From Streptomonospora salina (lineage in GTDB: Bacteria > Actinomycetota > Actinomycetes > Streptosporangiales > Streptosporangiaceae), in contig NZ_JACHLY010000001.1 of the NCBI RefSeq assembly GCF_014204715.1, positions 3,742,501 to 3,806,500 on the forward strand: DNA of 64,000 nucleotides, read 5' to 3'. Both the position numbers and the translations under genes were made by a program. The notes under the pieces were generated by a model. The model saw only the letters and a program-made list of their open reading frames with translations. It was not told where the DNA came from and did no database searches. Of the stretch, positions 33,511 to 36,568 are shown piece by piece (positions within the stretch are counted from its first letter, which is position 1; each line of letters opens with the position of its first letter).

Positions 33511-33879
33511 TCAGTCGAGCAGCCGGCCCATCTCCCGAACGGTGGGGCAGGGCCAGCGCAGCATGCAGCAGCGGCAGCGCCGTGCTCCCGGTGCGCCGGC
33601 GCTGCCGAGGGCGCCGGCGTCGCGCGGGCGGTGGGTCTCCAACAGCGCCAGGCACAGGTCGGCGAAGGAGGCGATCTCCTCGCGGGCGTTGGCGTAGAAG
33701 GCGATGTCGTTGACCCGCATGAGCCCGTTGCCGTCGGCCTGGGTCGGGACACCGACCGTATCGGGGGCCCACGGGACCGCTTTGGCCGCGCGTTCGCGGA
33801 TGCCCTCCACGTGGATGCGCAGCCGCTCGTGGTCGTCGAGCCGACCGGCCGTGGACGCGAAGATGTCCGAGATCGACAT
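33511..33879 (-). CDS. Uncharacterised protein with a C-terminal cysteine cluster
   Basis: 122 residues. The ATG at 33879 has an excellent GGGGAGG ribosome site. The N-terminal part is helical (DDHERLRIHVEGIRERA), the middle contains GLMRVNDIAFYANAREEIASFADL, and the C-terminus has RCRCCMLRWPCP, giving four Cys in nine residues that could bind a metal. It is not WhiB (wrong Cys spacing). The family is unknown to me, though the well-formed sequence and start argue for a real gene. Confidence 0.75.
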   Translation of the reverse strand: MSISDIFASTAGRLDDHERLRIHVEGIRERAAKAVPWAPDTVGVPTQADGNGLMRVNDIAFYANAREEIASFADLCLALLETHRPRDAGALGSAGAPGARRCRCCMLRWPCPTVREMGRLLD

Positions 33880-34082
33880 GCGGCCTCCCCGTGCGGCGCC
33901 GGCCGCCCGCGACGAGCCGGGGCCGGCGACGGTGTTACCCCGAACCGGGATTGTCGCAGGCTACCGACGGTAATGATGCGTGAGCACGCCGTTTCGCCGC
34001 GTGTCCGACGTGCGCGCAGACCAGGGCGGCGGAGCGGAACCGGCCGCCGGCTCCGGTGCCCCGGAACCGGCGGCCGCGGCGG

Positions 34083-34196
34083 TCAGCTGCAGCCGCCGCC
34101 GCAGTTGCACGGACCGCCGCTCTGGCAGCCGCAGCCGCAGCTCGATCCGCAGCTGCAGCCGCCGGGCACCGGGGCTGCGGGGGACGTCTCGGGCAT
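34083..34196 (-). CDS. 37-residue Cys-rich, metallothionein-like peptide
   Basis: A very short gene with a strong GAGGAGG ribosome site just before its ATG at 34196. The peptide starts MPETSPAAPVPG and then carries eight Cys in 25 residues (positions 14, 16, 20, 22, 24, 30, 32 and 36), arranged as repeated C-x-C, with no aromatic residue. This is the composition of bacterial metallothioneins, which bind Cu(I), Zn or Cd. It lies 145 bases downstream of cydB on the same strand. It might share the cyd transcript or have its own promoter. No CsoR- or SmtB-type site is visible in the gap. The metal is unknown. Confidence 0.75.
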   Translation of the reverse strand: MPETSPAAPVPGGCSCGSSCGCGCQSGGPCNCGGGCS

Positions 34197-34341
34197 GGTG
34201 CCTCCTCGGAAGGGGGTGGCCGACGCCTACCGGGGCAGACATCGCACTGCGTCGGCACAGATGCCCGCTGGGATCCGCCGCCAACCGGTCCGCGGGGTGC
34301 GATGAGGGTTGCCGCCGGGGTGGGAGCCGGTTCCCGCCCGG

Positions 34342-35253
34342 TCATCCGAAGAAGCCCGGATCCGGCGCCGGTCGGCGCACCATCCGGTACAGCCAGACCT
34401 GGCCCAGCACCATGAACGGCACGACGGGTGCCAGCGCCGACCAGAACAGTACGGCGGTGCCCGCCGGAACCGGCTCCACGGGAAGATCCACGGCCGCCGC
34501 GATGAGCAGCGGAACCGACGCCAGCGCCGCCGCCGACGTGTGCCGCGACAGCCGCGGCCCCGACAGCCCCGACGTCGCCGCCGGCGCGCCCAGCACGACG
34601 AGCGCCGCCGCAGCGGCCGCCAGCGGGCGTTCGGCCGCGACGCCGCCCGGAAGCGCCGACGCCCCCGCCGCGACGGCGCCCGCGGCCAGCGCCGTACGCG
34701 CGAGCGGCCGCGTCGCCCGGGCCGCCGTGTCGGCAGACACCGGAAGCAGCCGCTCGGCGCCGAAGGCCGCGCCGCGCAGCGCGAACAGCGCCGCGGCGGC
34801 CGGTGCGCACGCGAGCGCGACCGGGCTCAGCACGCCGCCGCCGGCCAGCAGCCCGCCGACTACCGCGCCCCAGCTCAGCGCCAGCGCCCAGCTGCCCCCG
34901 ACGATCCCCGTGTCGCAGACCGCCCGGGCCGCACCCGTGCGCATGCGCCCGCGCATCCACAGCCCCGCGTCCCGCAGCAGCCACCCGGCCAGCAGCGCAG
35001 CGAAGACCGGCCACAGCCCCGTGAACACGTGGGACTTCAGGGCGGGCAGCAGCCCCATGGCCACCCCCACCGCGCCGATCAGCCACACTTCGCTGCCCAG
35101 GAAGTAGGGCGCCATGGCCGAGACCGCGCGCCTGCGCTCGGCACCCGTGCGGGCCACGTACGGCATGAGCATGCCCAGCCCGATGTCGCATCCGGCGAGC
35201 ACCAGGTACCCCGCCACGAGGCCGGCGAGGAGGAGGGCGGCGAGGAATTCCAC
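34342..35253 (-). CDS. cydB: Cytochrome bd oxidase subunit II
   Basis: 303-residue membrane subunit of the bd-type quinol oxidase, the high-affinity terminal oxidase used under low oxygen. The GTG start at 35253 follows AAGGAG. The first segment VEFLAALLLAGLVAGYLVLAG with its following CDIG corresponds to the conserved start of CydB, and about eight hydrophobic segments follow. It is slightly shorter than the E. coli form. It follows cydA by 52 bases and is certainly co-transcribed. No cydCD is nearby. Confidence 0.92.
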   Translation of the reverse strand: MEFLAALLLAGLVAGYLVLAGCDIGLGMLMPYVARTGAERRRAVSAMAPYFLGSEVWLIGAVGVAMGLLPALKSHVFTGLWPVFAALLAGWLLRDAGLWMRGRMRTGAARAVCDTGIVGGSWALALSWGAVVGGLLAGGGVLSPVALACAPAAAALFALRGAAFGAERLLPVSADTAARATRPLARTALAAGAVAAGASALPGGVAAERPLAAAAAALVVLGAPAATSGLSGPRLSRHTSAAALASVPLLIAAAVDLPVEPVPAGTAVLFWSALAPVVPFMVLGQVWLYRMVRRPAPDPGFFG

Positions 35254-35305
35254 GGCAGGCTCCTTCGGTAACGGGCCGTCGCGCATGCGGGCGCGACAGT
35301 CCGGG

Positions 35306-36568
35306 TCAGAACGTGGCGACGGGCGGGGGCCCGGTGCCGCCTTCGGCCGACCCGCCGGTGTGCGCGGGTGCGAGCGGGCCGCGGTACGGACCGAGCCGCG
35401 CGACGCGCACCAGCAGCAGATACGTCACGGCCGCCAGCGCCGCGAACGCGACGGTGAACAGCGAGAACGAGACCGCCGCCATCGCCGGCGTCAGGTCCGT
35501 CATCGCGTCGGCGGTGGTCAGCAGGTCCTCCACGGCCCAGGGCTGGCGCTGGGTCTCGCGCAGCACCCACCCGCCGACACTGGCCGCATACGGCAGGAGC
35601 GGCAGCAGCACCAGCGGCCACAGCACGCCCCGCCAGCGGTCCAGCCGGCGCAGCGCCCACACCGCCAGCAGCACCAGCATGACCATCGACATCACCGACC
35701 AGGACCCCATCATGAGCCCGTCGCCGAACGCGTCGAAGGAGTCGGGAGCGGCGCCCTCGGCCTCGATGGCGGCGATCTCGCCGGCCGAATAGGTCAGCCC
35801 GCTGCCGGGCGGGGACCGCTCGTGCAGGGAGAACTGCAGGTAACCGACGTGGGCCGTGGGATACAGCGCCAGCGAGAACACGGCCGTTCCCCACCGGATG
35901 CCGCGCCCGAACATCCGGTCGGGGTCGGTGCGCCGGGCCAGGTGGTAGGCGCTGACCGCGATGAGCACCGTCGATCCCAACAGCAGCGCACCGAAGCAGA
36001 TGTGGGCCAACGCCAGCAGCGTCGACGGATTGGTCATCAGCGCCGCCGGGTCGCCGACCCGCGCCGTGCCGTCCTCGATCCGCAGGCCGCCCACCGGATA
36101 GCGCAGGAACCCGTTGGCCACCAGCACCCAGTAGGCCGACAGGTAGGCGGTCGCGGTCACCACCGCGAAGCACCCCAGGTGCGCCCACCGGTTCATCCGG
36201 TCCCAGCCGAAGATCCACAGACCCAGGAACGTCGATTCGACGAAGAAGGCCCCCATGGTCTCGACGGCCAGCGGAGCACCGAAGGCGTAGCCGAACATGT
36301 CGCCGAGCCCGCTCCAGTTCAGCGCCAGCTGCAACTCCATGACCAGGCCGGACAGTACGCCCATGGCGTAGTTGACGACGTAGAGGCCGCCCCAGAAGCG
36401 CACCGCGCGCATCCGGCCCTCGTCGCGGCGCACGGTGGCGCCCAGTTGGCCGGCCAGGATGAACGGGGCCAGGCCCAGGGTCAGGGCCACGAAGAGGTAG
36501 TGCACGCTCGCGGTCAGCGCGAACTGCATGCGCGCCAGCAGGAGGGGATCGTCGAACGGGGTCGGCAT
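35306..36568 (-). CDS. cydA: Cytochrome bd oxidase subunit I
   Basis: 420-residue heme-bearing subunit that oxidises quinol and reduces oxygen to water. The N-terminal LARMQFALTASVHYLFVALTLG contains the heme b595 ligand His. The conserved FGYAFG, ETMGAFF and FFVEST-type helices are present, and RYPVG is visible. The Q loop region is short, as in the S-type found in many Gram-positives. The ATG at 36568 opens the cydAB operon. Oxygen or redox control (for example Rex) is likely, but I see no convincing operator. Confidence 0.93.
   Translation of the reverse strand: MPTPFDDPLLLARMQFALTASVHYLFVALTLGLAPFILAGQLGATVRRDEGRMRAVRFWGGLYVVNYAMGVLSGLVMELQLALNWSGLGDMFGYAFGAPLAVETMGAFFVESTFLGLWIFGWDRMNRWAHLGCFAVVTATAYLSAYWVLVANGFLRYPVGGLRIEDGTARVGDPAALMTNPSTLLALAHICFGALLLGSTVLIAVSAYHLARRTDPDRMFGRGIRWGTAVFSLALYPTAHVGYLQFSLHERSPPGSGLTYSAGEIAAIEAEGAAPDSFDAFGDGLMMGSWSVMSMVMLVLLAVWALRRLDRWRGVLWPLVLLPLLPYAASVGGWVLRETQRQPWAVEDLLTTADAMTDLTPAMAAVSFSLFTVAFAALAAVTYLLLVRVARLGPYRGPLAPAHTGGSAEGGTGPPPVATF

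Follow-up and report, generated by a model that had tools for sequence, protein, structure and literature searches.

The locus considered here lies on the minus strand of a 64,000-nucleotide stretch of the Streptomonospora salina genome, which is called the window in what follows. At its centre is a very short mtpA-like gene (34083-34196, minus strand), recognized by its open reading frame, its conservation and its coding selection, and encoding a metallothionein-type peptide of 37 amino acids, MPETSPAAPVPGGCSCGSSCGCGCQSGGPCNCGGGCS. The eight cysteines of this peptide occupy positions 14, 16, 20, 22, 24, 30, 32 and 36, all of them inside 23 residues, and neither aromatic residues nor histidine are present. 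A Shine-Dalgarno motif, AGGAGG (34201-34206, minus strand), precedes the ATG by 4 nt, while directly 3′ of the stop codon there is a terminator-like hairpin with a 16-bp stem and no T-run (34041-34076, minus strand). The upstream gap contains a conserved promoter-like element, GGTTGGCGGCGGATCCCAGCGGGCAT (34261-34286, minus strand), which ends 64 nt before the ATG. On the same strand, and outside this unit, lie the cydB gene of a second, short bd-type oxidase (34342-35286; PF02322, 6.4e-29), whose end is 145 nt from the ATG of the peptide gene, and a short cydA of 420 aa (35306-36568; PF01654, 1e-85). The downstream neighbour, also on the minus strand, encodes a conserved hypothetical protein of 122 aa with the C-terminal sequence CRCCMLRWPCPT (33511-33879).

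The exact Cys spacing C.C...C.C.C.....C.C turns up at a single place when all six frames of the window are read, and never in 200 mononucleotide shuffles. Cysteine density alone, by contrast, is weak evidence for a gene, because this GC-rich window has further open segments of equal density: three segments, the mtpA-like gene included, reach 8 or 9 Cys per 25 aa, and Cys runs (GGC TGC repeats) are possible in several frames of GC-rich DNA. The codon usage of the frame is also unlike that of ordinary genes (log-odds -12.1). Both observations are what a spurious open reading frame in GC-rich DNA would produce, but such an explanation is hardly credible given that the Cys pattern, the ribosome site and coding-type substitutions are conserved across two bacterial families. 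It is this conservation in relatives that places the frame above chance, and although a Cys-dense sequence is by itself insufficient to prove a gene, the conclusion that 34083-34196 is one still holds.

When the single peptide was searched in its own genome and 40 relatives, eight clear homologues were recovered in addition to the query, with E from 3e-13 to 4e-6. When a profile of nine members was used, 59 out of 341 genomes of the same family as the window (Nocardiopsaceae in NCBI terms) matched at E <= 1e-3, with one match each, and the carriers span 14 of 68 genera. Leaving out one locus for which no start was called (L221), these 59 loci provided 58 called peptides of 34-38 aa and 55 distinct sequences, all with exactly eight Cys. 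The full Cys spacing plus an invariant Q fits 56 of the 58, F, W and Y are all absent from 55, and 57 are preceded by a Shine-Dalgarno motif at 5 or 6 of its 6 bases. The same-family peptides thus carry the hallmarks of metallothioneins: they are short, Cys-rich and C-x-C-containing, with few aromatic residues. As the loci were selected through their Cys pattern, the conservation of the cysteines is partly by construction; the peak of base variation at the third codon positions of the gene is free of that bias. In the peptide frame, pN/pS is 0.30 for 29 same-family loci, 0.24 for six Streptomonospora and 0.20 for 17 Streptomyces loci, whereas the two alternative sense frames and two of the antisense frames exceed 1, and the third antisense frame stays at 0.48-0.49. 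Of the 29 same-family loci, moreover, 2, 16 and 3 have stops inside the respective antisense frames. An overlapping antisense gene, considered as a candidate, finds no support in either its pN/pS values (at least 0.48) or these stops.

Most of what an earlier, sequence-only reading had described agrees with these results. It had called a short minus-strand gene of 37 aa with a strong Shine-Dalgarno, bearing eight Cys within 25 residues in C-x-C repeats and no aromatics, and all of these features are in place, the cysteines being even more compact than stated. It had also presumed that standard length cut-offs would miss the gene, and a frame so short is indeed easily overlooked by them in spite of its conservation. 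Of the checks that it had suggested, the Cys pattern turned out to be conserved in relatives, and no conserved gene on the opposite strand could be supported. Comparative sequence evidence therefore confirms a real gene at this place, and the metallothionein-like character assigned to its product fits the conserved C-x-C pattern, which would suggest metal binding.

Outside the family, the distribution of the peptide is dominated by one genus. Every one of 101 genomes in a Streptomyces-genus sample matches at E <= 1e-3, and a profile built from same-family peptides alone matches the Streptomyces peptides with E down to 8.9e-10 per genome. In a sample of the class, 66 of 394 genomes match at E <= 0.01, and those below 1e-4 belong either to the window's family or to Streptomyces. 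A sample of the phylum gave matches in 15 of 396 genomes: 11 belong to Streptomyces, one is the own genome and three are weak; the full core is absent from these three, two of them having no core and the other (L141) only its first half, within a far longer open frame. L100, a degenerate second copy, and the weak matches L104 and L105 were dropped from a set of 20 loci, their Cys pattern being unmatched. A DNA pattern for the core retrieved 70 stretches with named sources from genome contigs, an undercount because one of its positions admits only part of the possible codons (not TCN for Ser, for example). They come from Streptomyces, Kitasatospora, Mangrovactinospora, Nocardiopsis, Streptomonospora, Marinactinospora, Thermobifida and Actinorugispora, with single records labelled Streptosporangium nondiastaticum, Glycomyces fuscus and, for a MAG, 'Actinomycetes bacterium'. 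Two predicted viral contigs of IMG/VR (L282, 7092-7148; L283, 1425-1481) also carry short peptides related to it, in which the Cys core is the same, with no PHROGs match for either. Among plasmids, a single 49-aa Streptomyces peptide used as query found no match, a weak negative obtained with the low-complexity filter on.

The peptides of both lineages, about 27-55 aa in length across the family, share the core C-x-C-G-x2-C-x-C-G-C-Q-x-G-x2-C-x-C, to which those of the window's family add an eighth Cys. An alignment of 22 members from the two lineages contains 11 invariant columns (seven Cys, G17, G23, Q25 and G27), with a variable N-terminal part followed by an invariant Cys-rich end. Of the Cys columns, the two lineages have only seven in common, and the 17 Streptomyces peptides have seven (5), eight (8) or nine (4) cysteines. 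Short Gly/Cys peptides can come to resemble each other by convergence. The shared invariant columns include three G and one Q, and we conclude that the window peptide is homologous to the Streptomyces peptides encoded next to phoU. The contrast between a variable beginning and an invariant end could also suit a precursor, made by the ribosome and then modified, with a leader and a Cys-rich core, and a bacteriocin-precursor model is in fact weakly matched by one of the 22 members (E 0.026). We give this origin very little credence, as no cluster resembling a modification enzyme appears among the recurrent neighbours, that is, those found in at least 3 of 46 loci, part of which were covered by the Pfam search. 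The recurrent clusters are phoU/phoR/phoP, cydAB, a kinase-regulator pair, the 122-aa hypothetical and housekeeping genes.

In Streptomyces, the usual neighbour of the peptide gene is phoU. A PhoU gene (PF01895 in the one member searched) is called directly upstream, within about 1.1 kb, in 15 of the 17 loci, the exceptions being L092, where it is 3.2 kb off, and L103, where it was not called. Two loci (L099 and L106) continue on that strand with a gene for a protein of 83-91 aa belonging to one cluster, and the L099 member matches PDB 4OI3, a 'Nickel responsive protein', at 2.4e-39. This PDB entry is SCO4226, according to PMC4186839. The order phoU, peptide, SCO4226 homologue agrees with that of SCO4228 (phoU), SCO4227 and SCO4226 in S. 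coelicolor, and this gene order suggests that the phoU-adjacent peptide gene is SCO4227, or mtpA. In the literature, SCO4227 is tabulated as 'Metallothionein protein (mtpA)' (PMC2267785), but it is termed a hypothetical protein in PMC4991794. The latter places both SCO4226 and SCO4227 under PhoRP regulation, and printed accounts, this one and one other, disagree on PhoP. A PhoU-cluster gene was called at none of the 29 same-family loci within the 12-16 kb read around the peptide. The window gene likely belongs to the MtpA family of putative metallothioneins, which is known but has been studied little, and it would be a member that has changed its place. Considering both lineages together, a phoU match is found in 30 of the 70 named loci. 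Seven others (L159, L168, L178, L182, L204, L209 and L211) carry the peptide with no match to any of eight neighbour queries (phoU, phoR, gpm, cydA, cydB, the 122-aa gene, Dabb and an SCO4226-like gene). They are perhaps second copies, although phoU may simply be unseen in L168, L178 and L211, because fewer than 700 bases upstream are covered there.

Such a peptide can be passed over by annotation, because the members tested match no convincing NCBIfam or PHROGs model and, in Pfam, only Metallothio_5, weakly and in 2 of 22 members (best E 0.0056). A text search with the string CGCGCQSG found no paper, and the word 'metallothionein' is absent among the matches listed for the literature on Nocardiopsis, Thermobifida and Streptomonospora. 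Regarding structured RNAs, Rfam gave over 33800-34500 just three chance-level miRNA matches, far under the cut-offs. Annotation may in this way overlook an MtpA-family peptide that occurs in all 101 sampled Streptomyces genomes and in 14 of 68 same-family genera.

The mtpA-like gene of the window looks monocistronic, because it has its own upstream element and its own downstream hairpin. The pattern GNTTG-N14..17-GGG[ACT]A, which describes the upstream element, is present in 27 of the 29 same-family loci from which it was derived, against a mean of 0.3 and at most 3 after shuffling. It also occurs in 29 of 30 same-family loci outside that sample, 56 of 59 overall. The upstream patterns were written from the first 46 loci, so the 30 later loci test the same-family version only, and as the species are related, the occurrences are not independent events. 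The spacing is 15 in 50 of the 56 element-bearing loci. None of 491 control regions contains the pattern, and a looser version appears in three of them; these controls lie upstream of the remaining genes predicted within the 12-16 kb read at each of the 46 loci. A related element, GTTG-N15..16-GGG[ACT]AY, precedes 11 of the 17 Streptomyces loci (in-sample), and the narrow pattern is found in 15 of the 70 named loci from both lineages. We consider the upstream element a putative promoter. At the other end of the gene, the 34041-34076 hairpin folds at -40.5 kcal/mol (z -3.47), and strong hairpins are found at the same place in all four relatives folded (z -5.0 to -2.6), while a hairpin in the 5′ leader of the window is not significant (z -0.22).

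Further copies of the element were observed elsewhere. One lies directly before pspA in four Streptomonospora genomes (L245, L258, L268 and L278), identical in three of them and one base off in the fourth. Another (L251) is placed 9 nt before the start of a DUF488 gene, as if the mRNA were leaderless.

The layout of the element, GRTTGG-N14-GGGMAY, resembles that of sigma-B/F promoters. Simple patterns for metal-sensor sites (Zur, CsoR and CueR-like) each gave no match in the 59 same-family or the 17 Streptomyces upstream regions, so that metal induction is without support, and those for Rex and DosR sites gave none either. An equally simple SigR pattern matched 3 of the 59 and none of the 17. 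Control through a PHO box was rejected, its simple two-repeat pattern being found in 0/59 and 0/17 of these regions. Together with the copy before pspA, the sigma-B/F-like layout and the lack of metal-sensor sites are compatible with a redox or thiol buffer rather than a metal detoxifier, a Cys cluster for general stress that would scavenge oxidants, and release metal upon oxidation, under a general-stress promoter. PMC7866108 suggests that the mtpA product takes part in the sensing of oxidative stress or in resistance to it. Several observations make this alternative unlikely, however. The strict sigma-B consensus is absent from all 46 upstream regions, and the copy of the element before rbpA presumably fits a sigma-R site better. 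Genome-wide, the tight element has only 9 matches in the own genome versus 3 in the reversed control, and the wider one 40 versus 25 in three relatives. Moreover, S. coelicolor SCO4227 does not increase but decreases under oxidative stress, down to 0.14-fold and in an HbpS-SenS-SenR-dependent manner, as reported in PMC4991794.

The bd oxidase genes offer a second possible context for the peptide. The sequence-only reading had noted that the gene is clustered with this oxidase, and had taken this to suggest a link between metal (Cu/Zn) load and respiration under low oxygen. The first part stands for the window itself, with cydB and cydA upstream on the same strand, and for many relatives: both genes lie upstream in 41 of the 59 same-family loci, only a cydB match in 9, and neither in another 9. 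But contig ends cut 2 of the 18 cydA-less loci (L226 and L227), which leaves 16 of 57 informative loci where the peptide is kept with no cydA upstream. In eight informative loci with cydB only, the best match is to no more than the last 29-76 residues of cydB, and the peptide gene is present. A whole-genome search with PF01654 in ten genomes (eight lacking the oxidase beside the peptide gene, one having it and one cut) found a full-length canonical cydA in all ten. The own genome has a canonical cydA as well, about 94 kb away. Of the eight that lack the oxidase beside the peptide, three (G164, G165 and G096) have a short cydA at another place, and the other five (G127, G166, G152, G143 and G095) have none. 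The peptide hence outlives the oxidase. Obligate linkage, as expected for a member of a cydAB operon, does not hold, since the peptide persists where cydAB has been lost.

The short CydA is a divergent second form, distinct from the canonical CydA, with Pfam positions about 234-318 unmatched. Its occurrence in the family is patchy, and in some cases of absence a 3′ remnant of cydB is left behind. Upstream of the short cydAB, a pair of a histidine kinase and a LuxR-type response regulator is found in 19 of the 21 loci where these genes were called, among the 29 same-family loci for which 12-16 kb were read; the pair is present in L034-L040, L109-L112, L114-L120 and L126, and missing in the window and L041.

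A peptide that works together with cydAB and couples the metal load to respiration at low oxygen would agree with the frequent same-strand arrangement and with the 145 nt that separate the window's cydB from the ATG. Such a partnership is nevertheless very unlikely in the face of the cydA-less loci, of the eight with nothing but a cydB remnant and of the five genomes with no short cydA at all; in addition, the conserved promoter-like element separates cydB from the peptide gene, and the usual neighbour in Streptomyces is phoU, no cydAB gene having been called within the 12 kb read at the 17 loci of this genus. The respiratory link is accordingly unsupported. The 122-aa gene, downstream of the peptide in 52 of 59 same-family loci, is a more constant neighbour than cydAB; its product has no match in Pfam (window protein and a homologue) or in NCBIfam. 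The cydAB neighbourhood looks like lineage-specific synteny shared within the window's family, and not like a shared function. As neighbours vary with the lineage (cydAB or phoU) while the Cys core is constant, function should not be inferred from gene neighbours.

The reading that we favour, and regard as probable, is that of an MtpA-family peptide of metallothionein type, a thiolate cluster buffering metal and thiol state, expressed from its own promoter-like element and with cydAB as mere synteny. According to this proposal, the gene would be transcribed as its own short unit from the conserved element, not within cydAB, and its small product, probably cytosolic, would hold soft metal ions in a thiolate cluster through the conserved cysteines, mostly C-x-C pairs. 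This cluster would in turn buffer both free metal and the cellular thiol state. That the peptide works like a metallothionein is well supported, whereas its metal binding, its preference for Cu(I) and its buffering role are inferred. Short, Cys-only thioneins rich in C-x-C tend to bind Cu(I), as does the Neurospora one (1T2Y), and the His-containing SmtA types bind Zn. Histidine is not a kept ligand here, being absent from 22 of the 58 called peptides and placed after the first Cys in a single same-family locus out of 59 (L219). Because Cys-only, C-x-C-rich thioneins lean towards Cu(I), this ion is our first guess and the most likely ligand, with Zn as a possible one. More tentatively, MtpA peptides might serve Streptomyces and the window's family as a core buffer of thiols and Cu(I) that is nearly universal there and found also on some predicted viral contigs, with a general-stress promoter independent of metal sensors and of any fixed neighbourhood, and with a housekeeping role in redox and metal balance instead of metal resistance. 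If the peptide binds Cu(I), the genus that produces most antibiotics would have in it a core buffer for metal, and one that is easy to target genetically.

Among known systems, the bacterial metallothioneins of the SmtA/BmtA type (PF02069) are likewise small Cys-rich peptides, but this model is unmatched in the own genome and gives nothing over the cut-off in 20 relatives. The copper metallothionein of Neurospora crassa (PDB 1T2Y) comes closer in design, as it is very short, with Cys as the sole evident ligand and C-x-C pairs in a Gly/Ser frame. However, it belongs to a eukaryote, has another Cys spacing and is not recovered by the peptide profile, which reached no PDB chain at E <= 10 (a weak test for 1T2Y, a chain of 25 residues contained in that set), so this likeness is likely a case of convergence. 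MymT of mycobacteria is likewise a short, Cys-rich peptide from actinobacteria, and binds Cu. The closest known system is MtpA/SCO4227 of Streptomyces coelicolor and S. lividans, the putative metallothionein encoded beside phoU; the phoU-adjacent Streptomyces peptides, which would represent it, have the Cys core of the window's family and are recovered by the same-family profile. Compared with them, the gene of the window's family has cydAB and the 122-aa gene as neighbours where Streptomyces has phoU, and its product usually has a shorter N-terminal part and a constant eighth cysteine, where Streptomyces peptides vary from seven to nine.
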